Shown here: one piece after another, positions 18,981-31,310 of the stretch
Numbering within the stretch: the first letter of the stretch is position 1
Layout of the letters: each line of letters starts with the position of its first letter
Source: Acidobacteriota bacterium
GTDB taxonomy: Bacteria; Actinomycetota; Actinomycetes; S36-B12; CAIYMF01
Assembly (NCBI GenBank): GCA_025449595.1
Contig: JANWJC010000155.1
Span: 1-32,554, forward strand
Length of the DNA stretch: 32,554 nt
Direction: 5' to 3'
Translations under genes and position numbers: made by a program
Notes under the pieces: model-generated
Database searches by the model: none
What the model was told of the DNA's origin: nothing
Seen by the model: only the letters and a program-made list of their open reading frames with translations

Positions 18981-20600
18981 GTGGGGGTACTGGGGGACGT
19001 TGCCAGGGTTCCGGACGTGCGACGCGTCGAGGTGGGCTGGGCCCTGTGCCTGACCGGCGGGATGATCGCCACCGTCGCGCTCCTCATCTACGCGTTCACC
19101 GCCGGCGGAGCGGCCTTGGTCGCCGCGTTCGCGGTGTCCGAGGCAGTGGTACGAGCCGTGATGTCCTCGGTCACCTCGAGCTTGGGTGACAGGATCGGAC
19201 GGGATCGACTGCTGCGGTGGACGGCCAGCCTCGCTGCCGTCTTCATGGCGCTCGCGGCATTGGCCGCGACGATGGGTGCATCACCTGGCGTGGCGATCGC
19301 GTTGGCCGTGCTGTCCTCAGGGTTTCGAGGTTCCTATCGTCCGCTGCAGGCCGCGATCCTGCCGTGGTTGGTACGCACTCCGGCCGAGCTGACGGCCGCG
19401 AACGTCACCTCGACGATCATGGAGAGCACCGGTCGACTGATCGGCCCCGCGATCGCCGGGGTGGTCCTGCTGGTGTCGAGCGCCCAGGCCGCCATCGCGG
19501 TCGCCGCTGCCTTCATCGCTCTGAGCTGGCTGAGCACGTGGCGGCTCAGAGTGCCCGACCAGTCGCTCGTCGTGCCGGATGACTCGGGCATGACCTGGCG
19601 GGACATATCGGTCGGAGCGCATGCGGTGTGGCAGGTGGGTAGGCCAGGTGGGCTCGCCGTGCTCGCGGTCGCGCAGACCTTCGCACGCGGGGTCCTGACG
19701 GTCGCGCTCGTCGTGTTCGCCCTCGAGGTGCTGCAGCTCGGTGAGGACTCAGTGGGCTGGCTCAACGCCGCGATGGGCCTGGGGGGCCTTCTCGGTGGTG
19801 TGCTCGCGGTATCGCTGGTCCGTATCACCCGGCTGGGTCGTTCGTTCGCCGCGGGTATTGCGCTGTGGGGTGTTCCGTTGCTGTTGCTGGCAGCCGTACC
19901 GCAAACGGCCGTGGCCTATCTGGCTCTGATCGTGATCGGGGTGGGCAACGCGTTCGCGGACGGAGCGATGTACACCCTGCTGCCGCGGTTGGTCGGATCG
20001 CGGATCGCGGGACGAGCCCTGGGAGCCCTTGAGCTGCTGGTCTTCGCCGGGCTCGCGGCGGGGGCTCTGGCAGCCCCGTTGCTCGTTGCCGGCTTGGGTC
20101 CACGCGGCGGATTCCTGGTCGCGGGGACGCTGATCGTCGTGCCGGTGGTGGCGTACGCCAGCCGCTTCGCACGAATAGACCGCACGTTGCCGGCGCCGGG
20201 ACCCGAGCTCGACCTGCTGCGCGGACTGCCGATGTTCCAGCACCTCCCGCTGGTCATCGTGGAGCAACTGGCGGAGAGCCTCGAGGCGCACGAGTACGAA
20301 CGTGGCGACGTCGTCATGCGTCAGGGCGCGCCGGGCGAGCAGTTCCACGTCGTACGTCGCGGCTCGGCGAGCGTGATGGTCGACGGCCGGCCGCGGCCGT
20401 CGCTCGTTGTCGGCGACTGCTTCGGCGAGATCGCGCTGCTGCGCGACATCCCTCGCACCGCCACGGTGATCGCCGGCGAGGATCTGGCGACCCTTGTCCT
20501 CCCGCGCTCGGACTTCCTGTCCGCCGTCACCGGTCACCAGACCAGTGCCGAGCACGGGCACGCACTGGCCCGCCGCCGCCTCGCCGCCGACCCCGACTGA
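18981..20600 (+). CDS. MFS transporter fused to a C-terminal cyclic-nucleotide-binding domain
   Basis: About 12-TM MFS body; C-term GDVVMRQGAPGEQFHVVRRGSASVMVDG...VGDCFGEIALLRDIPRTATVIAGEDLATLVLPRSDFL. Confidence 0.88.
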   Translation: MGVLGDVARVPDVRRVEVGWALCLTGGMIATVALLIYAFTAGGAALVAAFAVSEAVVRAVMSSVTSSLGDRIGRDRLLRWTASLAAVFMALAALAATMGASPGVAIALAVLSSGFRGSYRPLQAAILPWLVRTPAELTAANVTSTIMESTGRLIGPAIAGVVLLVSSAQAAIAVAAAFIALSWLSTWRLRVPDQSLVVPDDSGMTWRDISVGAHAVWQVGRPGGLAVLAVAQTFARGVLTVALVVFALEVLQLGEDSVGWLNAAMGLGGLLGGVLAVSLVRITRLGRSFAAGIALWGVPLLLLAAVPQTAVAYLALIVIGVGNAFADGAMYTLLPRLVGSRIAGRALGALELLVFAGLAAGALAAPLLVAGLGPRGGFLVAGTLIVVPVVAYASRFARIDRTLPAPGPELDLLRGLPMFQHLPLVIVEQLAESLEAHEYERGDVVMRQGAPGEQFHVVRRGSASVMVDGRPRPSLVVGDCFGEIALLRDIPRTATVIAGEDLATLVLPRSDFLSAVTGHQTSAEHGHALARRRLAADPD

Positions 20601-21580: not shown

Positions 21581-21600
21581 TTGACTGACTGTTCAGTCTA
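21581..21600. promoter_or_regulatory. candidate TetR-family operator, site 1 (TTGACTGACTGTTCAGTCTA)
   Basis: Dyad GACTGA-CTGT-TCAGTC immediately upstream of the FAD oxidoreductase at 21616. Confidence 0.8.
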
Positions 21601-21615
21601 TGCGAGCGTCGCGGA

Positions 21616-22821
21616 ATGGCCGGTCCTTCCTCCCACACCGCAGACGCCGTCGTTGTAGGGGGTGGAACGGTCGGCGCGTGGTGCGCCTGGTTCCTGGCTC
21701 GGGAGGGTCTGGAGCATGTGGTCGTACTCGACGAGGACACCCTCGGTCGCGGCGCCAGCAGCCGCGCGGCCGGAATGGTGCGAGCCCAGGGTGGGACCGA
21801 GATCGGGGTCCGACTTGGCATCTGGTGTCGGGATTTCTACTCCCAGCAGTACGAAACCACCGGGATCGACTCCGGGTTCGTGAAGCAGGGCTACTTCATG
21901 CCGGCGTTCTCGGCGGCGGAGGTGGCCACGGCGCACGAGCGCATCGCGATGCAGCAGCGGCTCGGCCTCGACGTCAGGTGGGTCGAGCCGGACCAGGTCG
22001 ACGCGATGAACCCGTCACTGGCGCCCGGCAGCACGATGGGGGCGTCGTACTCCCCGACCGACGGTTACGTCGACCCGCCGCGGAACGTGCTGGCGTACAC
22101 CGCGGCACTGCTCGGTGCCGGTATCGATATCCGCGAGCGCACCAGGTTCACCGGGCTTGTCACCGAAGGTGCCCGGGTGGTCGGAGCGAAGACCAGTGCC
22201 GGGACGATCTCCACCGACCGCGTGGTGCTCGCCGGTGGTACCAGGATGGCCGACCTCGGGGCAATCGTCGGCGCCCGGATCCCGGTCGGTCGCGTACGGC
22301 ACCAGGTCGCCGTCACCTCACCGCACCCCGACCTCGCCGCGAGCCGGCTGCCGATGTTCTTCGACCTTGTCTCCGGGATCTACTGGCGCCCCGAGGAGGG
22401 CGGGCTGCTGTGGGGGATGAGCAACCCGGAGGAGTCCCCCGGCCGTTCCACTGGTTTCGACTGGGCGTACTACGAGTCGATCCGCAGGCGGATGGCCGAG
22501 CTGGTCCCGGTCACGGGGCGGATCGGTGTCGCGAAGACGTGGGCGGCCACCATCGAGTTCACCCCGGACCATCTTCCGGTGCTGGGTCCGGTGCGTACCA
22601 GTGACGGACCGATCGCCGGCGCCACGATCGCGTCCGCCTGCGGGCACGGGATGATGTGGGGGCCAGCCGTGTCCCGGGTCGCGGCCGATCTGGCCCTGCG
22701 CGGCAGCACCGATCTCGTCGACGTCACCGACCTCGGGATCGACCGTTTCGACTCCGAGGGGCGCAGCAAGCTTGCTGCCGACCCGATCGCGCTGCCGTTC
22801 CCGGAGCGGGCCACTGCCTGA
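21616..22821 (+). CDS. FAD-dependent oxidoreductase (DAO family, sarcosine/dimethylglycine oxidase-like)
   Basis: ADAVVVGGGTVGAWCAWFLAREGLEHVVVLDEDTLGRGASSRAAGMVRAQGG; C-term VAKTWAATIEFTPDHLPVLGPV...GATIASACGHGMMWGPAVSRVAADL. Confidence 0.9.
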   Translation: MAGPSSHTADAVVVGGGTVGAWCAWFLAREGLEHVVVLDEDTLGRGASSRAAGMVRAQGGTEIGVRLGIWCRDFYSQQYETTGIDSGFVKQGYFMPAFSAAEVATAHERIAMQQRLGLDVRWVEPDQVDAMNPSLAPGSTMGASYSPTDGYVDPPRNVLAYTAALLGAGIDIRERTRFTGLVTEGARVVGAKTSAGTISTDRVVLAGGTRMADLGAIVGARIPVGRVRHQVAVTSPHPDLAASRLPMFFDLVSGIYWRPEEGGLLWGMSNPEESPGRSTGFDWAYYESIRRRMAELVPVTGRIGVAKTWAATIEFTPDHLPVLGPVRTSDGPIAGATIASACGHGMMWGPAVSRVAADLALRGSTDLVDVTDLGIDRFDSEGRSKLAADPIALPFPERATA

Positions 22822-22830
22822 GCGCCGTCA

Positions 22831-22866
22831 CCGGACCGCCCACTGCCTGGGCGGTGGGCGGTCCGG
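22831..22866. terminator. hairpin between convergent oxidoreductase genes
   Basis: ccggaccgcccactgc-ctgg-gcggtgggcggtccgg: 16-bp stem with one non-Watson-Crick position. Confidence 0.75.
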
Positions 22867-22886
22867 GTGGATCGAGCGCGAGGAGG

Positions 22887-24536
22887 CTAGCGGGCTTGGC
22901 GCTCCGGCAGGCGCAGCTTCTGACGGCGGCCCTGTGCCTTCTTGTCCGCGATCGCGGCCTTGGCGGCCTGCATGCCGGGGATGCCGCAGACCCCGCCACC
23001 GGCGTGGGTGGCTGAGCTCGCGTTGTACAGCCCCGCGATCGGCGTGCGGTAGTCGGCGTAGCCCGGGGCCGGCCGCATGTGGAACAGCTGCTCGAGCGAG
23101 AGCTCGCCGTGGAAGATGTTGCCGCCGATGAGCCCGTACTCCTGCTCGAGCTGGTGCGGGCCCAGGATGTCGCGGTGCAGGATCGACTTCGCGAAGCCGG
23201 GCGCCACGTCGTCGTACAGGGCGATGAGCCGGTCGGCGTACGCCTCGAGCTCCTCGGTGTGCGGCTCGAGGTTCCAGTCGTGGGGTACGTACTGCGAGAA
23301 CATCGACATGACGTGGGTGCCTTCCGGGCACAGCGTCTTGTCCATCGTCGAGGGGATGACGGTGTCGCTGAACGGTGCCGTCGAGGCTTTGCCCTCCCGG
23401 GCCTCCTGGAACGCCCGCTCGATGAACTCCATCGACGGTGCCATGTCGATCGAGCCGGTGTGGTGGTCCTGCTGGTTGTGACCGGGGTCCGCCGTGAAGC
23501 TGGGCAGCTCGGACAACGCGAGGTTGATCTTCACGACGCCGCTGCGGGTCTTCCACCGCTCGATGTCGGTGACGAAGTCCGCGGGCAGCTCCTCACGCGG
23601 GATGTGGTCCAGGAACGCCGTCTTCGGGTGCAGGCTCGTGACGACGACCGGGGCCCGCAGCTCGTCGCCGTTGTCGAGCACCGCGCCGAGGACTCGGCCG
23701 TTCTCGACGATCAGCCCGGCGACCTTCGCGTGGGTACGTACCTCGGCACCCACGCTCTCCGCGGAGCGCCGGATGGCGTCCGCGACCGCGCCCTGGCCAC
23801 CCTCGGCGTAGCCCCAGCTGCCGAGCTGTCCGTCGCCGACGTCGCCGATGGAGTGGTGTGCCATGACGTACGCGGTGCCCGGCTCGTACGGACCGGCCCA
23901 CGTGCCGATCACGCCGTTGACCGAGAGGGCGCCCTTGACCTGCGGTGACTCGAACCAGTCGTCCAGCAGGTCACCGATGCTCATGGTCATCAGCCGGGTC
24001 ACGTCGCCGATGGTGCGTACGTCCAGACCGCGGTGCGCCCACGCCAGCCGTACGGTGGCCGCGAGGTCCGCGGGACGCTGCGAGCCGATCTTCGGCGGGA
24101 CCTGCAGCAGCAGCGGCCCGAGCACGTCGGCCATCCCGCTGAGCCACGCGTTGTACTTGCCCATCGCGTCCGCATCGCGCTTGGACCACTTCGCGAACTC
24201 GTCGTAGGTGCGCTTGGGGTCCCCGTCGTCGATGAGGATCGAACCGCCCTCGGGGAATGCCCCGTAGTACGGGCCCATCGGGAACACCTTGTAGCCGAAT
24301 CGTTCCAGCTGCAGGTCCTGCAGGATCGTGGGCGGCATGAGGCTCATGACGTACGACAGCCGCGTCACCTTGAACTCCGGGGCGTCCGGCCAGGGGCTGT
24401 CGGTCGTCGCCGCGCCGCCGGTCTTGTGGCGACCCTCGAGAACGACGGTCCGGGCGCCGGTCTTGGCGAGGTACGCCGCCGCGACCAGTCCGTTGTGCCC
24501 GCCGCCTACAACGATCGCGTCGTAATTCGAAGTCAT
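22887..24536 (-). CDS. NAD(P)/FAD-dependent oxidoreductase (COG1233, phytoene-desaturase/PYROXD2-like)
   Basis: NYDAIVVGGGHNGLVAAAYLAKTGARTVVLEGRHKTGGAATTDSPWPDAPEFKVTRLSYVMSLMPP...; C-term GLYNASSATHAGGGVCGIPGMQAAKAAI. Confidence 0.92.
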   Translation of the reverse strand: MTSNYDAIVVGGGHNGLVAAAYLAKTGARTVVLEGRHKTGGAATTDSPWPDAPEFKVTRLSYVMSLMPPTILQDLQLERFGYKVFPMGPYYGAFPEGGSILIDDGDPKRTYDEFAKWSKRDADAMGKYNAWLSGMADVLGPLLLQVPPKIGSQRPADLAATVRLAWAHRGLDVRTIGDVTRLMTMSIGDLLDDWFESPQVKGALSVNGVIGTWAGPYEPGTAYVMAHHSIGDVGDGQLGSWGYAEGGQGAVADAIRRSAESVGAEVRTHAKVAGLIVENGRVLGAVLDNGDELRAPVVVTSLHPKTAFLDHIPREELPADFVTDIERWKTRSGVVKINLALSELPSFTADPGHNQQDHHTGSIDMAPSMEFIERAFQEAREGKASTAPFSDTVIPSTMDKTLCPEGTHVMSMFSQYVPHDWNLEPHTEELEAYADRLIALYDDVAPGFAKSILHRDILGPHQLEQEYGLIGGNIFHGELSLEQLFHMRPAPGYADYRTPIAGLYNASSATHAGGGVCGIPGMQAAKAAIADKKAQGRRQKLRLPERQAR

Positions 24537-24570
24537 CCCAGGTTCCTTTGACAGGGCAACGGCGGTACCG

Positions 24571-24590
24571 TTGACTGACTGTTCAGTCTA
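24571..24590. promoter_or_regulatory. candidate TetR-family operator, site 2 (TTGACTGACTGTTCAGTCTA)
   Basis: 20/20 identical to site 1; lies in the divergent region between 22887-24536(-) and tetR(+). Confidence 0.85.
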
Positions 24591-24680
24591 AGCGTCGACA
24601 CACCCCGGGACAAGGGTGGATCCGTAGCGACGTGAGGACGTGACCGGTGGAGCGAGGGCTCCGCGACCCGACGAGGAGCG

Positions 24681-25394
24681 ATGACCGCCGAACCGCGTGA
24701 GACCTCAGCGCAGGACGAACGCCGCGAACAGATGCTCGAAGCCGCCGTCGAGGTCATCTGCGAGCGTGGTTTCGCCGAGACGCGCATCGCCGACGTGGCG
24801 ACCCGGGCCAACGCGAGCCCCGCGCTCGTCATCTACTACTTCGGCACCAAGGACGGCCTGCTCACCGCCGCGTTCCGGCACTCGGAGGAGAAGTTCTACC
24901 GCAGCACCGCTTCGCTGATGGCTACCCAGCCCGACGCCGCGACGAAGCTCGAGACGCTGGTGCGGGTCACGTGCGTCAAGCAGGGGCGCGACGAGGTCCC
25001 TGGAGCGTGGGGGCTGTGGCTCGACCTGTGGGTGCAGGCGTTCCGCCACCCGGCGCTGTCGAAGGACCGTGCTGTCTTCGATCGGCGGTGGACGGCCACG
25101 ATCGGGGACGTCGTGCGCGAGGGGCAGCAGACGGGGGAGTTCGGCGAGATCGACGTCGAGAACTTCGCGATCGCCTTCGCTGCCCTGATGGACGGCTTGT
25201 CGATCCAGGTGGCGCTCGACGACGAGATCGTCGACTCGACGCGGGCACTGGCGGTGGCGATGGGCTTCGCCGCCGGCGCTCTCGGGTTCACGTGGGCATC
25301 GACTGACCGACCCGGTGCGGGCGGCACGCGGAAGCGCAAGTCCGCGCAGCGGACGGTCAGCGTCGCGTCCACGCCGCCCCGTTCAGCTCGCTGA
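24681..25394 (+). CDS. TetR/AcrR family transcriptional regulator (BetI-like)
   Basis: RREQMLEAAVEVICERGFAETRIADVATRANASPALVIYYFGTKDGLLTAAFRHSEEKFY (HTH); TetR C-terminal domain. Confidence 0.93.
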   Translation: MTAEPRETSAQDERREQMLEAAVEVICERGFAETRIADVATRANASPALVIYYFGTKDGLLTAAFRHSEEKFYRSTASLMATQPDAATKLETLVRVTCVKQGRDEVPGAWGLWLDLWVQAFRHPALSKDRAVFDRRWTATIGDVVREGQQTGEFGEIDVENFAIAFAALMDGLSIQVALDDEIVDSTRALAVAMGFAAGALGFTWASTDRPGAGGTRKRKSAQRTVSVASTPPRSAR

Positions 25395-26543
25395 CGCCAC
25401 CTTCGCCTCGTCGCCCTCCGCGAGGTCGGCGTCCTCGTCGGCCGGGGCGACCGGGCGGGTGTCGGCCGGCAGCAGCCGGGCTGCCTCGGGCGCGATGTAG
25501 GCCTTCACCGGGCTGCCTGGTTCGTACGTCGTGGCGGTCGGGCCGAGCGTGTTGGTCACGGCCGCCAGCAGCGTCTGCCCGTCGGGGAGCCGAACCACGA
25601 CGTGGGTGGTCGGTCCGAGGAAGACGACCCGGTCGATCAGCCCGGTGAACGCGCTCGTCCCGGCAGGCTGCTCGCTGTCGAGGCTGCCGAGCCGTACCTG
25701 CTCCGGGCGTACGACCACTTTGGCCGGGCCGGGAGGGCACTCGCCGAGGGCGCGCAGGTGGTAGCTGCCCAGGGTGCAGTCCGTCGTCGCCCCCTCCCGT
25801 CCGTGCACCTCGACGTCGACGACGTTCGCGGAGCCGAGGAAGCCGGCGACGTAGGCACTCGCGGGAGCGGAGTAGACCTCCTCGGGAGGTCCGCTCTGCT
25901 CGATCAGCCCCTCCGCCAGCACCGCCAGCCGGTCCGACATCGTGAGGGCTTCCTCCTGGTCGTGCGTCACGTAGACGAACGTGATGCCGACCGACTTCTG
26001 GACCAGCTTGAGCTCGATCTGCAGCTCCTTGCGCAGCTTGGCGTCCAGCGCGCCCATCGGTTCGTCGAGCAGAAGCACGGCGGGGTTGAGCACGAGCGCG
26101 CGGGCGAGGGCGACGCGCTGCTGCTGACCTCCGGAGAGCTGAGCGGGGCGCCGGGCCTTGAACCCGACCATGCGCACCAGCTCGAGCGCCTCGCCGACCC
26201 GGCGTTTGACCTCGGCCTTGGAGCTCTTCTGGTACCTCAGGCCGAACTCGACGTTGTCCCAGACCGAGAGGAAGGGGAACAGTGCGTACGTCTGGAACAC
26301 CGTGTTGACCGGCCGCTGGTTCGGGGGCAGGGGGACCAGGTCCACGCCGTCGAGGCGGATCTCGCCCTCGTCGGGGCGCTCGAAACCGGCGATCATGCGC
26401 AGGGTCGTGGTCTTGCCGCAGCCTGAGGGGCCCAGCAGGGAGAAGAACTCGCCCGCCTCGATGTCCAGGTCGATGCCGCGTACCGCCGGCTCATCGCCGT
26501 AGGACTTCTTCAGCCCGGACAGCCGAATCGCACCACCGGTCAC
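25383..26543 (-). CDS. polyamine-type ABC transporter ATP-binding protein (PotA-like)
   Basis: Walker A GPSGCGKTT, signature LSGGQQQR, Walker B VLLLDEP, H-loop YVTHDQEEALTMSDR, C-terminal TOBE-like domain. GTG start at 26543; the ORF-track extension runs through operator site 3. Confidence 0.95.
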   Translation of the reverse strand: MTGGAIRLSGLKKSYGDEPAVRGIDLDIEAGEFFSLLGPSGCGKTTTLRMIAGFERPDEGEIRLDGVDLVPLPPNQRPVNTVFQTYALFPFLSVWDNVEFGLRYQKSSKAEVKRRVGEALELVRMVGFKARRPAQLSGGQQQRVALARALVLNPAVLLLDEPMGALDAKLRKELQIELKLVQKSVGITFVYVTHDQEEALTMSDRLAVLAEGLIEQSGPPEEVYSAPASAYVAGFLGSANVVDVEVHGREGATTDCTLGSYHLRALGECPPGPAKVVVRPEQVRLGSLDSEQPAGTSAFTGLIDRVVFLGPTTHVVVRLPDGQTLLAAVTNTLGPTATTYEPGSPVKAYIAPEAARLLPADTRPVAPADEDADLAEGDEAKVASAS

Positions 26544-26656
26544 ACGACACTCCTCTTCGGGGGGCACGCTCGAGCGGGAGCGCACTCCCGGGAAGCTGGC
26601 GCCATTGTGCCCCGACCGCCCACATGGTCGAGGAGATTTCAGATGTGTTGCGAAGG

Positions 26657-26676
26657 TTGACTGAGCGTTCAGTCTA
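26657..26676. promoter_or_regulatory. candidate TetR-family operator, site 3 (TTGACTGAGCGTTCAGTCTA)
   Basis: 18/20 identical to sites 1 and 2, with both dyad arms perfect; divergent region between potA-like(-) and potD-like(+). Confidence 0.85.
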
Positions 26677-26777
26677 AGCAACCATCACCGCAACGGGCAA
26701 GGACTTGGCGGTGCCGGCGCCTTGCCAGCAGGCGCCGCGTGCGAGCGTCCGTCAACAGATCACGTCGCGGAGGACCA

Positions 26778-28079
26778 ATGCCAGACCAGACAGTCGACAA
26801 TCCTGACGAGTCGCGCGCGCATCGCTTCGTACGCCCGCCGCTGAGCCGCCGCAGCTTCCTGCAGCGCAGCGCCGTCGCCGGACTGGGAGCTGCGTCGCTC
26901 GTCGCCTTCCTCGACGCGTGCGCAAGCTCCAACATCAACGGGGCTACGCCCTCGGGCAGTCCCGGCCTGCAGATCGCCACGCCGACGAACCCGGTCCTGT
27001 GGCCCATCAGCGCGGACAACCCGGTCATCGCCGCAGGACAGAAGCCGGAGCAAGGAGGGGTGCTCCAGCTGTACAACTACGCCGACTACATCGACCCGAA
27101 CGCGGTCAAGTCGTTCGAGAAGAAGTACGCCGCGTACAACGTGAAGGTGCAGATCTCGACGTTCAACGACACCGACGAGGCCATGACCAAGATCAGGGCC
27201 GGCAGCGTGCCCTATGACATGTACTGGCCGAGCTATGACCAGATCAGCCGGCTCGTGAACGGCAAGCTGGTCCGCCCGCTGCAGCAGTCGTACATCCCGA
27301 ACATCAAGAACGTCTGGCCCTCCTTCGAGAACCCGTGGTACGACCAGCAGTGGCGCTACACCGTGCCCTACACCGTCTACACGACCGGGATCGGCTGGCG
27401 CAGCGACCAGGTCAAGCAGGACATCGGGGGGCTGAGCAACCCGTACGCGTCGCTGTGGGATCCGCAGTACCGCGGCAAGACAGCCGTCATCGACGACTGG
27501 CACACGGCGATGATGCTGCCGCTTCTCAAGGCCGGCGGCACCGACATGAACGTCACGGATCCAGCTCAGATCCAGGAGATCGGCACCCAGCTCACTGCCA
27601 TGCAGGCAGCGACCAAGCCGCGGGTGACGATCACCATGTACAACGACATCTCCACCGGCCAGCTCGGTCTGAGCCAGTTCTGGTCCGGGGACATGGTCAA
27701 CGCCGTGTCGTACCTGCCCAGCGGGCAGAGCCCGAAGGTCCTGAACTACTGGTTCCCGCCGGACGGCAAGGGATCGGTCGACAACGACCTCATGGTGATC
27801 TTGGCGAAGGGCAAGTGTCCCGTCCTGGCACACCTGTTCATCGACCACATGCTTGACACCACCACGGCCCTCGGGAACTTCTCCTACATCGGATACCAGC
27901 CGCCGCAGAACTCCATCAACCCCTCACAGCTGGTGAGTGACGGCTACCTGCCGGCGAACCTGGCCTCGTGCACCGTGCTGCCGGAGTACTTCGACGTAGG
28001 GTTCCGGCTGCTCGAGATGTCGCCGAGTGTCACGGCCCTGTGGCAGCAGCAGTGGCAGAAGTTCAAGGCCGGAGGCTGA
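26778..28079 (+). CDS. ABC transporter substrate-binding lipoprotein (PotD-like), Tat-type signal
   Basis: LSRRSFLQRSAVAGLGAASLVAFLDACASS (twin Arg plus lipobox); LQLYNYADYIDPNAVKSFEKKY...VQISTFNDTDEAMTKIRAGSVPYDMYWPSYDQISRLV. Confidence 0.92.
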   Translation: MPDQTVDNPDESRAHRFVRPPLSRRSFLQRSAVAGLGAASLVAFLDACASSNINGATPSGSPGLQIATPTNPVLWPISADNPVIAAGQKPEQGGVLQLYNYADYIDPNAVKSFEKKYAAYNVKVQISTFNDTDEAMTKIRAGSVPYDMYWPSYDQISRLVNGKLVRPLQQSYIPNIKNVWPSFENPWYDQQWRYTVPYTVYTTGIGWRSDQVKQDIGGLSNPYASLWDPQYRGKTAVIDDWHTAMMLPLLKAGGTDMNVTDPAQIQEIGTQLTAMQAATKPRVTITMYNDISTGQLGLSQFWSGDMVNAVSYLPSGQSPKVLNYWFPPDGKGSVDNDLMVILAKGKCPVLAHLFIDHMLDTTTALGNFSYIGYQPPQNSINPSQLVSDGYLPANLASCTVLPEYFDVGFRLLEMSPSVTALWQQQWQKFKAGG

Positions 28080-28082
28080 TCG

Positions 28083-29000
28083 GTGCTCAAGAAGGCGGGG
28101 CGCAAGTCCCGTGGGCGCAGGAGCCTGCTCTGGCCGGCGCTGGCAATCCCCGGCATCGTCTGGCTCGCTCTACTTTTCATCCTGCCGATGTATGTCGTGC
28201 TGGCGATCGTCTTCGGGCAGCAGGACCCGATCTTCCGCAACGCGATCCCGGTGTGGAACCCGCTGCAGTGGAACTCCGCCCAGTTCCAGTACGTGTTCTC
28301 GAACATCTTCGGTGCCAACGCCATCTACGGCCCGGCGATCCTGCGGACGATCGTCTTTGTCCTGATCGCCAGCTGCCTGTGTCTGATCGTGGCCTACCCG
28401 GTGGCGTACTTCACTGCCCGGTTGGCGGGCAGGTGGAAGGGCGTCCTGCTCATCATGCTGATCGCTCCGTTCTGGATCAGCTACATGATGCGGATGCTGG
28501 CGTGGGTGAACCTGCTGCAGAACGACGGCCTGATCAACAAGGGGTTGAGCCTGGGCGGCCTGTTCAACGTCCAGGTCGACTGGCTGGACGGGATGCCGCT
28601 GACCGTCATCCTCGGGCTGGTGTACGGCTACGTGCCGTACATGATCCTGCCGCTGTTCGCCGGCCTGGACCGGATCCCGCAGAGCTCGCTGGAGGCAGCG
28701 CGTGACCTCGGGGCCGGGCGTTTCAGCGCCTTCGTGAGGGTCACCTGGCGGCTGAGCCAGCCGGCTGTCATCGCGTCGGTCCTGATCACCTGCCTGCCGA
28801 TGCTCGGCGACTACTACACCAACGACATGCTGTCCGCCCAACCCAGCACGAGCATGGTCGGAAACCTGATCAACAACACGGTCCTGACCCCAGGCCAGAC
28901 CGGCCAGGCAGGGGCCTTCGTCGTGCTGGTCCTGGCCGCCGCGCTGCTTCCGATGCTCTGGTACGTGCGTTCCACCCGCGACGAGGGGGCAAGGTCCTGA
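28083..29000 (+). CDS. ABC transporter permease (PotB-like)
   Basis: Multi-TM; LIAPFWISYMMRMLAWVNLLQNDGLIN; EAA-loop LEAARDLGAGRFSAFVRVTWRLSQPAV. Confidence 0.92.
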   Translation: MLKKAGRKSRGRRSLLWPALAIPGIVWLALLFILPMYVVLAIVFGQQDPIFRNAIPVWNPLQWNSAQFQYVFSNIFGANAIYGPAILRTIVFVLIASCLCLIVAYPVAYFTARLAGRWKGVLLIMLIAPFWISYMMRMLAWVNLLQNDGLINKGLSLGGLFNVQVDWLDGMPLTVILGLVYGYVPYMILPLFAGLDRIPQSSLEAARDLGAGRFSAFVRVTWRLSQPAVIASVLITCLPMLGDYYTNDMLSAQPSTSMVGNLINNTVLTPGQTGQAGAFVVLVLAAALLPMLWYVRSTRDEGARS

Positions 29001-29878
29001 TGGGCTGGCTGGTCAGGTGGTGGAATGACCCGTGGCGACCGCCGCGGATCATGCGGTGGGTAACCATCCTCTACCTGGTGTGGTCGCTCGCGCCCGTGCT
29101 GGTCGCGATCCTCTTCTCGTTCAACAACGGCAAGTCCCGCACCACGTGGCAAGGGTTTTCCTTTCGGTGGTACTGGGGAGACCCCAACTTGTCGGTGTGG
29201 AACGACACCAGCATGCACACCGCGCTGGTGCACACCCTCGTGCTTGGAGTCGTCTCGACGGTCATCGCCGTGCCGCTCGGGGTCCTGTTCGCCCTCGGCA
29301 TCGACCGGTGGCACGGCAGGCTCCCGGCCGGTGCCAACTTCACGATGCTGCTGTCCTTCGTGATACCAGAGATGCTGTTGGCCGTCGCACTGCTGTTCCT
29401 CTTGACGAGCGTCACCACCCCGTTGCAGCTGGGGACCTCCGCTCAGGTGGTAGGGCTCGTCACGTTCCAGCTGTCGTACCCCGTGATCATCGTGCGCGCT
29501 CGACTGCTCACCATCGGAAAGCACTACGAGGAGGCGGCCATCGACCTCGGCGCCTCGCAGGTCGGCGCGATCCGCCGGGTGCTGCTGCCCATGCTCGGCC
29601 CGGCCATGCTGGCGAGCGCCGTGCTGGTGTTCGCCGATGTTATCGACGACTTCGTCATCGTGCGCTACCTGTCCGGAGGCTCGGATACGGAGCCGGTGTC
29701 TGTGAAGATCTACAACACGGCCCGCGCCGCGCCGACGCCCGCACTGAACGCCCTGGCCACGCTGTTGCTTTTCTCCTCGATCGCCGCAGTGGTCATCGGG
29801 TACCTGATCTACCGGTGGTTGACCCGAGGCGACGCCACGGCCAACAAGGGGATAGGCGGCTTCGCCGGCGAGCTCTGA
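29000..29878 (+). CDS. ABC transporter permease (PotC-like)
   Basis: Start overlaps the potB-like stop (TGATG); EEAAIDLGASQVGAIRRVLLPMLGPAM; LVFADVIDDFVIVRYLSG. Confidence 0.92.
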   Translation: MGWLVRWWNDPWRPPRIMRWVTILYLVWSLAPVLVAILFSFNNGKSRTTWQGFSFRWYWGDPNLSVWNDTSMHTALVHTLVLGVVSTVIAVPLGVLFALGIDRWHGRLPAGANFTMLLSFVIPEMLLAVALLFLLTSVTTPLQLGTSAQVVGLVTFQLSYPVIIVRARLLTIGKHYEEAAIDLGASQVGAIRRVLLPMLGPAMLASAVLVFADVIDDFVIVRYLSGGSDTEPVSVKIYNTARAAPTPALNALATLLLFSSIAAVVIGYLIYRWLTRGDATANKGIGGFAGEL

Positions 29879-29931
29879 GTGCGGCGAGAAACTATGCGAG
29901 CTCTGGACGGGACCTGGCCTCACGGCGTATC

Positions 29932-29951
29932 CTGACTGTGTGTTCAGTCAA
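29932..29951. promoter_or_regulatory. candidate TetR-family operator, site 4 (CTGACTGTGTGTTCAGTCAA)
   Basis: 16/20 identical to site 1; dyad GACTGT-GTGT-TCAGTC; upstream of the Rieske gene, next to a possible -10 TATCCT. Confidence 0.7.
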
Positions 29952-29969
29952 CCGAGGTCAGGAGTCGGC

Positions 29970-31154
29970 ATGGTCACCCCCGCACCGCTCGACACACAGG
30001 AGCTGCAACGCTGCGTCGGCCCCGTCGAGCAAGCGCGACTGCTGCCGCGGGGGGCGTACGTCGATGCCGCGGTGCTGGAGTGGGAGCAGCACCACTTCTT
30101 CGGTGACTGGATCTGCGCCGGACGAAGTGCTGACATCGCGGAACCGGGCATGCAGCGGGCTGTGTCGGTCGGCACGTCCGGTGTCCTGCTCACCCGCGGC
30201 GAGGACGGCGCGCTGCACGCGTTCGTGAACACCTGCCGGCACCGCGGGCATGAGCTGTTGCCGTGCGGAGAGTCGGCGACGAAGAAGTCGATCGTCTGCC
30301 CGTACCACGCCTGGTCGTACCGCCTGGACGGGAACCTGCACGTGGCTCCCGGCTTCCGCAACGTGGAGTCGTTCGACAAGGACGAGTTCAGCCTGTACGG
30401 GCTGCCGGTGCGCGAGTGGCACGGCTGGATCTTCGTCGCGCCGTCGGGCAAGGCCGGCGACTTCGACCACCACATCGGTGAGCTCGAGGCGATCGTCGCC
30501 CCGTACGCCCCGGAGAACCTCGAGGTCGTCACCACCCACGACTACGTGATCGAGGCCAACTGGAAGGTCCTGATCGAGAACTACCAGGAGTGCTACCACT
30601 GCTCGATGATCCACCCCGAGCTGTGCCGGGTGAGCCCGCCGGAGAGCGGTGAGAACATCGACCGCGACGGCGAGTGGGTCGGTGGCTGGATGGACCTGCG
30701 CGAGGGCAACGAGACGATGTCGCTGGACGGGCGCAGCTCCAGCGTCCGCATCGAGGGCCTCGACGAGCAGGAGCAGCACACGGTGATGTACATCGCCGTG
30801 TTCCCGAACCTGCTCATCAGCCTGCACCCCGACTACGTCATGACACATGTGCTGACGCCGCTGTCAGCGGGGCGTACCCACGTCGAGTGCGCCTGGGCCT
30901 TTCCGAAAGAAGCCGTGCAGCGCCCCGACTTCGAGCCGTCGAACACGATCGACTTCTGGGACATCACGAACCGGCAGGACTGGGGTGCGTGCGAGTCCGT
31001 CCAGCGTGGGCTCGCCTCCGAGCTGGCCATCCCGGGGCCGATGGCCCCGGAGGAGGACGGCGTCTACCATTTCGTGTCGATGGTGGCTGCCCGCTACCTA
31101 GGGGTGAGCACCGTCGCCGAGCTGTCCCCACCGCCGACCAGCGTTCCCGTCTGA
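29970..31154 (+). CDS. Rieske non-heme iron oxygenase alpha subunit (quaternary-amine monooxygenase-like)
   Basis: NTCRHRGHELLPC...SIVCPYHAWSYRLDG (CxH...CxxH); NYQECYHCSMIHPEL mononuclear Fe site region; ITNRQDWGACESVQRG. Confidence 0.93.
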   Translation: MVTPAPLDTQELQRCVGPVEQARLLPRGAYVDAAVLEWEQHHFFGDWICAGRSADIAEPGMQRAVSVGTSGVLLTRGEDGALHAFVNTCRHRGHELLPCGESATKKSIVCPYHAWSYRLDGNLHVAPGFRNVESFDKDEFSLYGLPVREWHGWIFVAPSGKAGDFDHHIGELEAIVAPYAPENLEVVTTHDYVIEANWKVLIENYQECYHCSMIHPELCRVSPPESGENIDRDGEWVGGWMDLREGNETMSLDGRSSSVRIEGLDEQEQHTVMYIAVFPNLLISLHPDYVMTHVLTPLSAGRTHVECAWAFPKEAVQRPDFEPSNTIDFWDITNRQDWGACESVQRGLASELAIPGPMAPEEDGVYHFVSMVAARYLGVSTVAELSPPPTSVPV

Positions 31155-31294: not shown

Positions 31295-31310
31295 CGGCTC
31301 ACGTGAGCCG
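31295..31310. repeat. 16-bp perfect palindrome CGGCTCACGTGAGCCG, copy 1 (upstream of the DUF222 gene)
   Basis: Direct reading. Confidence 0.95.

Follow-up and report, generated by a model that had tools for sequence, protein, structure and literature searches.

The closest described counterpart of the locus considered here is BetI of Escherichia coli, a choline-responsive repressor, together with the palindrome TTGATTGGACGTTCAATATA in the betI-betT intergenic region of strain K-12. In Ruegeria pomeroyi, footprint and expression data place the BetI1 box over the -35, from where it represses (PMC12442346). The regulator encoded in the window (the whole stretch of 32,554 nucleotides analysed here) is a BetI-type member of the TetR family, with both domains above the gathering score (PF00440, 47.6 bits against a cut-off of 24; PF13977 (TetR_C_6), 71.9 bits against 27). 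These TetR_N and PF13977 domains are shared with E. coli BetI, to which the window TetR is 28% identical over 195 aa; the BetI equivalog scores are missed (TIGR03384 and NF001978, 103.2 against 201.3 bits and 91.4 against 118 bits, respectively). Furthermore, judged by half-sites and spacing, the palindrome found in the window is a BetI-type operator, since the E. coli K-12 palindrome has the same spacing, differing at 4 of the 18 specified consensus positions. The four copies of this palindrome very probably act as the operators of a single regulon under repressor control, the local TetR being the putative binder.

Gene content and operator motif

The cluster comprises eight genes (Table 1), and profile searches agree with the content originally proposed for it. 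The nearest matches of the DAO-family protein are sarcosine oxidase and dimethylglycine dehydrogenase, and those of PotD are polyamine-binding proteins. For the Rieske protein, the nearest solved structures are carnitine monooxygenase and two entries for ring-hydroxylating dioxygenases with a demethylase annotation (3vca and 4qup; Stc2, the stachydrine demethylase), with GbcA as the nearest NCBIfam model.

Table 1. Window coordinates of the cluster genes, candidate operators and predicted promoter elements
Feature	Position	Strand	Remarks
Operator 1	21581..21600	+	TTGACTGACTGTTCAGTCTA; upstream of DAO gene
Operator 1 promoter (predicted)	-35 TTGACT 21581-21586; -10 GAGCGT 21604-21609	+	
FAD-dependent oxidoreductase, DAO family	21616..22821	+	Sarcosine oxidase/dimethylglycine dehydrogenase-like
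COG1233 FAD-dependent oxidoreductase	22887..24536	-	CrtO/phytoene dehydrogenase-like; leftward from operator 2
Operator 2	24571..24590	+	TTGACTGACTGTTCAGTCTA; between COG1233 gene and tetR
Operator 2 leftward promoter (predicted)	-10 TAGACT 24590-24585; -35 TTGTCC 24613-24608	-	
TetR-family regulator	24681..25394	+	BetI-type C-terminal domain (PF13977); candidate repressor acting at each of the four operators and on its own gene
PotA-like ABC transporter ATPase	25383..26543	-	Start is GTG after GAGGAG, picked by inspection
Operator 3	26657..26676	+	TTGACTGAGCGTTCAGTCTA, 18/20; between potA and potDBC
Operator 3 rightward promoter (predicted)	-35 TTGACT 26657-26662; -10 AACCAT 26680-26685	+	
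Operator 3 leftward -10 (predicted)	TAGACT 26676-26671	-	
PotD-like solute-binding protein	26778..28079	+	Twin-arginine/lipoprotein-like signal; ATG 26778 by inspection
PotB-like permease	28083..29000	+	Contiguous with potD; without own operator in relatives
PotC-like permease	29000..29878	+	Contiguous with potB; without own operator in relatives
Rieske gene -10 (predicted)	TATCCT 29928-29933	+	Overlaps first two bases of operator 4
Operator 4, weaker variant	29932..29951	+	CTGACTGTGTGTTCAGTCAA, 16/20; at Rieske gene
Rieske non-haem iron oxygenase	29940..31154	+	Stc2/GbcA/CntA N-demethylase relative; likeliest start GTG 29940, alternative ATG 29970

The first-pass annotation had described two identical copies of the motif along with an 18/20 and a 16/20 variant, and re-reading of the letters found this to be exact. 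The core palindrome GACTGA-N4-TCAGTC is perfect at three of the four sites and carries a single mismatch at the remaining one, while composition predicts only 0.00025 perfect occurrences in the 9.6-kb stretch and 0.07 in the genome. That no further copy had been noticed by eye also held for the available genome (2.59 Mb, 72.8% complete), in which a scan with the 20-mer TTGACTGANNGTTCAGTCTA, allowing up to three mismatches, returned the four window sites only (0 matches for the reversed-pattern control). The 16-mer at three mismatches was dropped as evidence, since its 14 matches in the window are no more than the 14.9 expected by chance; specificity therefore rests on the strong matches and the 20-mer. 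At one mismatch, the 16-mer gave two extra matches in the genome (C10:6162 and C75:26288), the spacer being conserved in neither, and both were rejected as operators on being lost in the 20-mer scan up to three mismatches. An unlinked operator may lie in the missing part of the genome. A search of open-access full text for the motif sequence or this gene combination gave no match.

Two features flank the cluster. To its right, a different, perfect 16-bp palindrome, CGGCTCACGTGAGCCG, occurs at 31295, 32229, 32295 and 32346, i.e. four copies in about 1.1 kb against 0.01 expected by chance. At 18981-20597, a 539-aa protein is encoded whose N-terminal part is MFS transporter-like; the C-terminal part matches a region common to Pat acetyltransferase and family 2B encapsulin models and is possibly a cyclic-nucleotide-binding domain.

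Conservation across related genomes

Orthologous loci, gathered by a scan with the TetR protein (orthologues 44-62% identical), were found in Nocardioidaceae MAGs, Nocardioides ungokensis, N. guangzhouensis, N. agariphilus, N. islandensis and a Mycobacterium MAG, as well as in a genome labelled Candidatus Nanopelagicales, from a genus-mate of the window organism. Conservation of the motif at such loci had been suggested as a check, and the outcome is strongly positive. Taking the best operator match within about 260 bp upstream (at most four mismatches), a site precedes tetR in 25/25 loci, DAO in 16/16 and the COG1233 gene in 14/14 orthologues, the class III aminotransferase gene in 15/16, potD in 15/18 and the acyl-CoA dehydrogenase gene in 14/17 loci. 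The Rieske gene has a site in 7 of 16 loci, with weaker variants in most others; potB and potC together have one in 33, and random control segments gave 5 matches in 831.

When 395 genomes of the class were scanned for the exact motif without regard to genes, eight besides the window's own gave matches. Seven of these carry the orthologous cluster; in the eighth (G035), a single perfect site lies beside a tetR orthologue (62% identical) without the cluster, the best COG1233 homologue being a 39% paralogue. Motif occurrence at unrelated loci, which would have spoken against a regulon, was thus seen neither in the own genome nor among the exact copies elsewhere, all of which lie at the cluster or at a tetR orthologue. 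In the complete genome of N. ungokensis, all three perfect sites lie inside the cluster. In N. islandensis, the DAO gene is located on another contig and still has the operator. These decoupled cases (G035 and N. islandensis) link the operator to the regulator and its targets and not to a particular DNA segment.

The recognition helix SPALVIYYF, or a close version, is nearly invariant among the TetR orthologues carrying the operator. Four loci with a CAATC half-site (L016, L021-L023) have a TetR sharing an SS[A/G]L...GTRD version of the helix, and the motif is absent at two more distant TetR homologues (L025, 43%; L026, 37%).

The clusters of relatives usually add genes for an acyl-CoA dehydrogenase, an ADP-forming acyl-CoA ligase and a class III aminotransferase. 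A search for these in the own genome and the genus-mate gave paralogues only (aminotransferase 43-45%; in the genus-mate, CoA ligase 32% and acyl-CoA dehydrogenase 44%), with no CoA ligase or acyl-CoA dehydrogenase paralogue in the own genome; the window cluster is therefore either a reduced version or has its extra genes in the missing part of the genome.

Several other variations were observed among relatives. The genus-mate locus has two potD copies (L013, 4991-6289 and 10882-12117), with a perfect operator at one and a weak two-mismatch match at the other. Four Nocardioides MAGs (L014, L015, L017, L019) have two additional genes directly after tetR, one encoding a SAM-dependent methyltransferase-like protein and the other without any NCBIfam match. 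Elsewhere in Nocardioides genomes, the operator-like palindromes TGACTGAAC[AG]TTCAGTA and TGACTGANTGTTCGGTC lie near paralogous catabolic genes, namely GcvT with a COG1233 paralogue (L069, L070) and a Rieske paralogue with a short-chain dehydrogenase (L071, L072), which suggests that this genus has a whole family of BetI-like regulons whose operators are related.

Predicted promoter geometry

A conserved promoter geometry, new here, is predicted for sites 1-3, in which the left half-site would serve as a rightward -35 and the right half-site as a leftward -10. Numbering the 20-mer as 1-20, A at position 25 together with T at position 29 (TTGACT-N17-NANNNT) is found at 11/11 DAO sites against 2.4% by chance; this and the other fixed-offset counts come from related loci that are not independent, and their significance is overstated to some degree. 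In this numbering, the DAO gene begins at position 37-38 in 16 relatives; the window ATG lies at 36, so that all 17/17 loci are within 36-38. A conserved -10 located 6-8 nt upstream of the start codon, taken as the mark of a leaderless transcript, is present at 17/17 DAO and 8/9 Rieske loci. Hence, the DAO transcript is predicted to be leaderless and to start at or near ATG 21616, with the left half-site as its -35.

The leftward promoter TTGTCC-N17-TAGACT, already proposed for site 2 in the first-pass annotation, gains support from the relatives: the TTG (= CAA) of the -35 is present at 16/16 tetR sites, where chance predicts about 5%, and its spacing to TAGACT is 17-18 bp in nearly all of them (15 in one locus). 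In the rightward direction, an extended -10 (TGNTANNNT) starts at positions 27-31 in 14/16 tetR sites, the window and the genus-mate being without it. Corresponding rightward and leftward elements occur at 10/15 and 12/15 potD sites, respectively.

The Rieske site deviates from this geometry. Each copy had been placed just upstream of a transcription unit; this stands for the other three, while the fourth probably contains the start codon, which had been missed. Nine loci, including those of N. islandensis and N. agariphilus, share the operator form [CT]T[GA]ACTG[TC]NTGTTCA[GA][TA]CA[AG], consistently a poorer palindrome than at the other sites, and in all nine the operator starts inside a TANNNT hexamer. 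Positions 9-11 form an in-frame ATG or GTG in 8/9, giving the N-terminus [M/V]F(S/K/N)Q, and the most likely start codon in the window is GTG 29940, inside operator 4 and a few bases after TATCCT. Operator 4 is thus predicted to lie not over a -35 but over the points at which transcription and translation begin. At six other Rieske loci (L014, L015, L017-L020), inspection revealed nothing better than degenerate palindromes, located a short way past a TAGNNT hexamer. The chances are about even that one 20-bp sequence at the Rieske gene combines the operator with the end of the -10, the point where transcription begins and codons 1-4 ([M/V]-F-[S/K/N]-Q) of a leaderless mRNA, with the need to code keeping affinity lower and thereby setting a graded induction, across several actinobacterial families.

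Proposed regulation and comparison with known systems

The locus displays what defines a local regulon of the TetR type: an operator before the regulator and before its target units, conserved in orthologous loci and rare elsewhere. The sites could instead belong to another TetR-family protein encoded elsewhere, the local TetR having different targets, and the BetI-like palindromes before the paralogous genes of Nocardioides (L069-L072) do speak for the coexistence of several regulators with similar operators. Such an assignment is improbable in view of the operator before tetR itself in 25/25 loci, the restriction of exact copies to genomes with tetR nearby or with the cluster, and the persistence of operator and tetR together in G035, where the cluster COG1233 orthologue is missing; moreover, the local TetR is BetI-like, and the operator is similar to the one of E. 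coli BetI. It is hardly credible that the palindrome is a mobile or structural repeat between genes (an inserted element, a terminator or a non-regulatory protein-binding repeat): local duplication could, in principle, give identical copies within one locus, but the copies are flanked by sequences without extended similarity to each other, and the palindrome sits at the starts of units and not before potB/potC. Its inverted symmetry with BetI-type spacing and its fixed position relative to promoter elements across families also argue against a repeat, and the phylogenetic footprint already contradicts one.

Some TetR-family proteins act as activators, and the existence of these members leaves room for activation at all or some of the sites. 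Nevertheless, an activating role is very improbable, as the operators overlap the -35/-10 or the transcription start, positions which normally exclude polymerase, and the R. pomeroyi BetI box that likewise covers the -35 is repressive (PMC12442346).

With repression by the local TetR as the preferred reading, a dimer on each operator would block RNA polymerase when ligand is absent. At sites 1-3, one bound repressor could silence both directions because the half-sites double as rightward -35 and leftward -10; for the Rieske gene, the block would act on initiation and probably be less tight than at the other units, because the weaker operator 4 lies just after the -10, over the starts. The ligand, probably an imported amine or betaine or an intermediate derived from it, would release the repressor and switch on PotABCD-like uptake and breakdown (Rieske oxygenase, DAO and COG1233 oxidases) together, with TetR limiting its own synthesis. 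From this promoter geometry, in which one operator apparently holds the start codon of a leaderless transcript, a clear prediction follows for the relative strengths of repression.

As to function, the nearest matches of the Rieske, DAO and PotD proteins suggest that an amine or betaine is imported and then N-demethylated or oxidized step by step. The analysis joins a Rieske oxygenase, two FAD oxidases and a Pot-type importer in one putative inducible pathway, probably for an amine or betaine, to which relatives add the acyl-CoA dehydrogenase, the ADP-forming CoA ligase and the aminotransferase; the ligand that releases the repressor would provide a direct handle on the substrate. The likeness of the relatives' CoA ligase to the DMSP lyase DddX was considered as a hint at a propionate-betaine substrate but not adopted, as 3-hydroxypropionate-CoA ligase is equally similar. 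In N. islandensis, an unlinked ferredoxin-reductase-type gene with NAD-binding and Fer2 domains (L074 2861-3802; G019:C10:70860-71801) is preceded at about 16 bp by the near-perfect site TTGACTGACTGTTCAGACAA, and its product could plausibly supply the Rieske oxygenase with electrons. A reductase was not retained in the core regulon, given that only this candidate has the operator and homologues in other genomes are without the site.

Among described enzymes, the Rieske N-demethylases Stc2, GbcA and CntA rank high among the solved structures and NCBIfam models matched by the window protein, which stays far below the GbcA equivalog cut-off (NF058607, 211.1 against 670 bits); in contrast to these systems, the window cluster contains no reductase gene. 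With respect to PotABCD, PotA passes the TIGR01187 subfamily cut-off (357.4 against 355.6), while PotB, C and D have Pot proteins as best matches, far below the equivalog cut-offs; unlike in PotABCD, the transporter is split into divergent potA and potDBC, and something other than a polyamine may be its substrate. As a local regulon of a BetI-like TetR, the system is of an ordinary kind; the conserved promoter overlap and the start codon within an operator are less so. A DNA motif can now be assigned to a BetI-like TetR subfamily, together with a regulon conserved in several families of actinobacteria. The window regulon, with its PotABCD-like transporter, Rieske oxygenase and FAD oxidases, is unlike that of BetI with betA, betB and betT, none of which belongs to the eight-gene cluster or to the further genes conserved in the clusters of relatives. 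It further differs in having several operators and in the half-site (GACTGA, against GATTGG in the E. coli BetI operator). A divergent gene arrangement is common to BetI systems and the window locus, and placement of the operator over the -35, predicted for window sites 1-3, is shared with R. pomeroyi BetI1 (PMC12442346).
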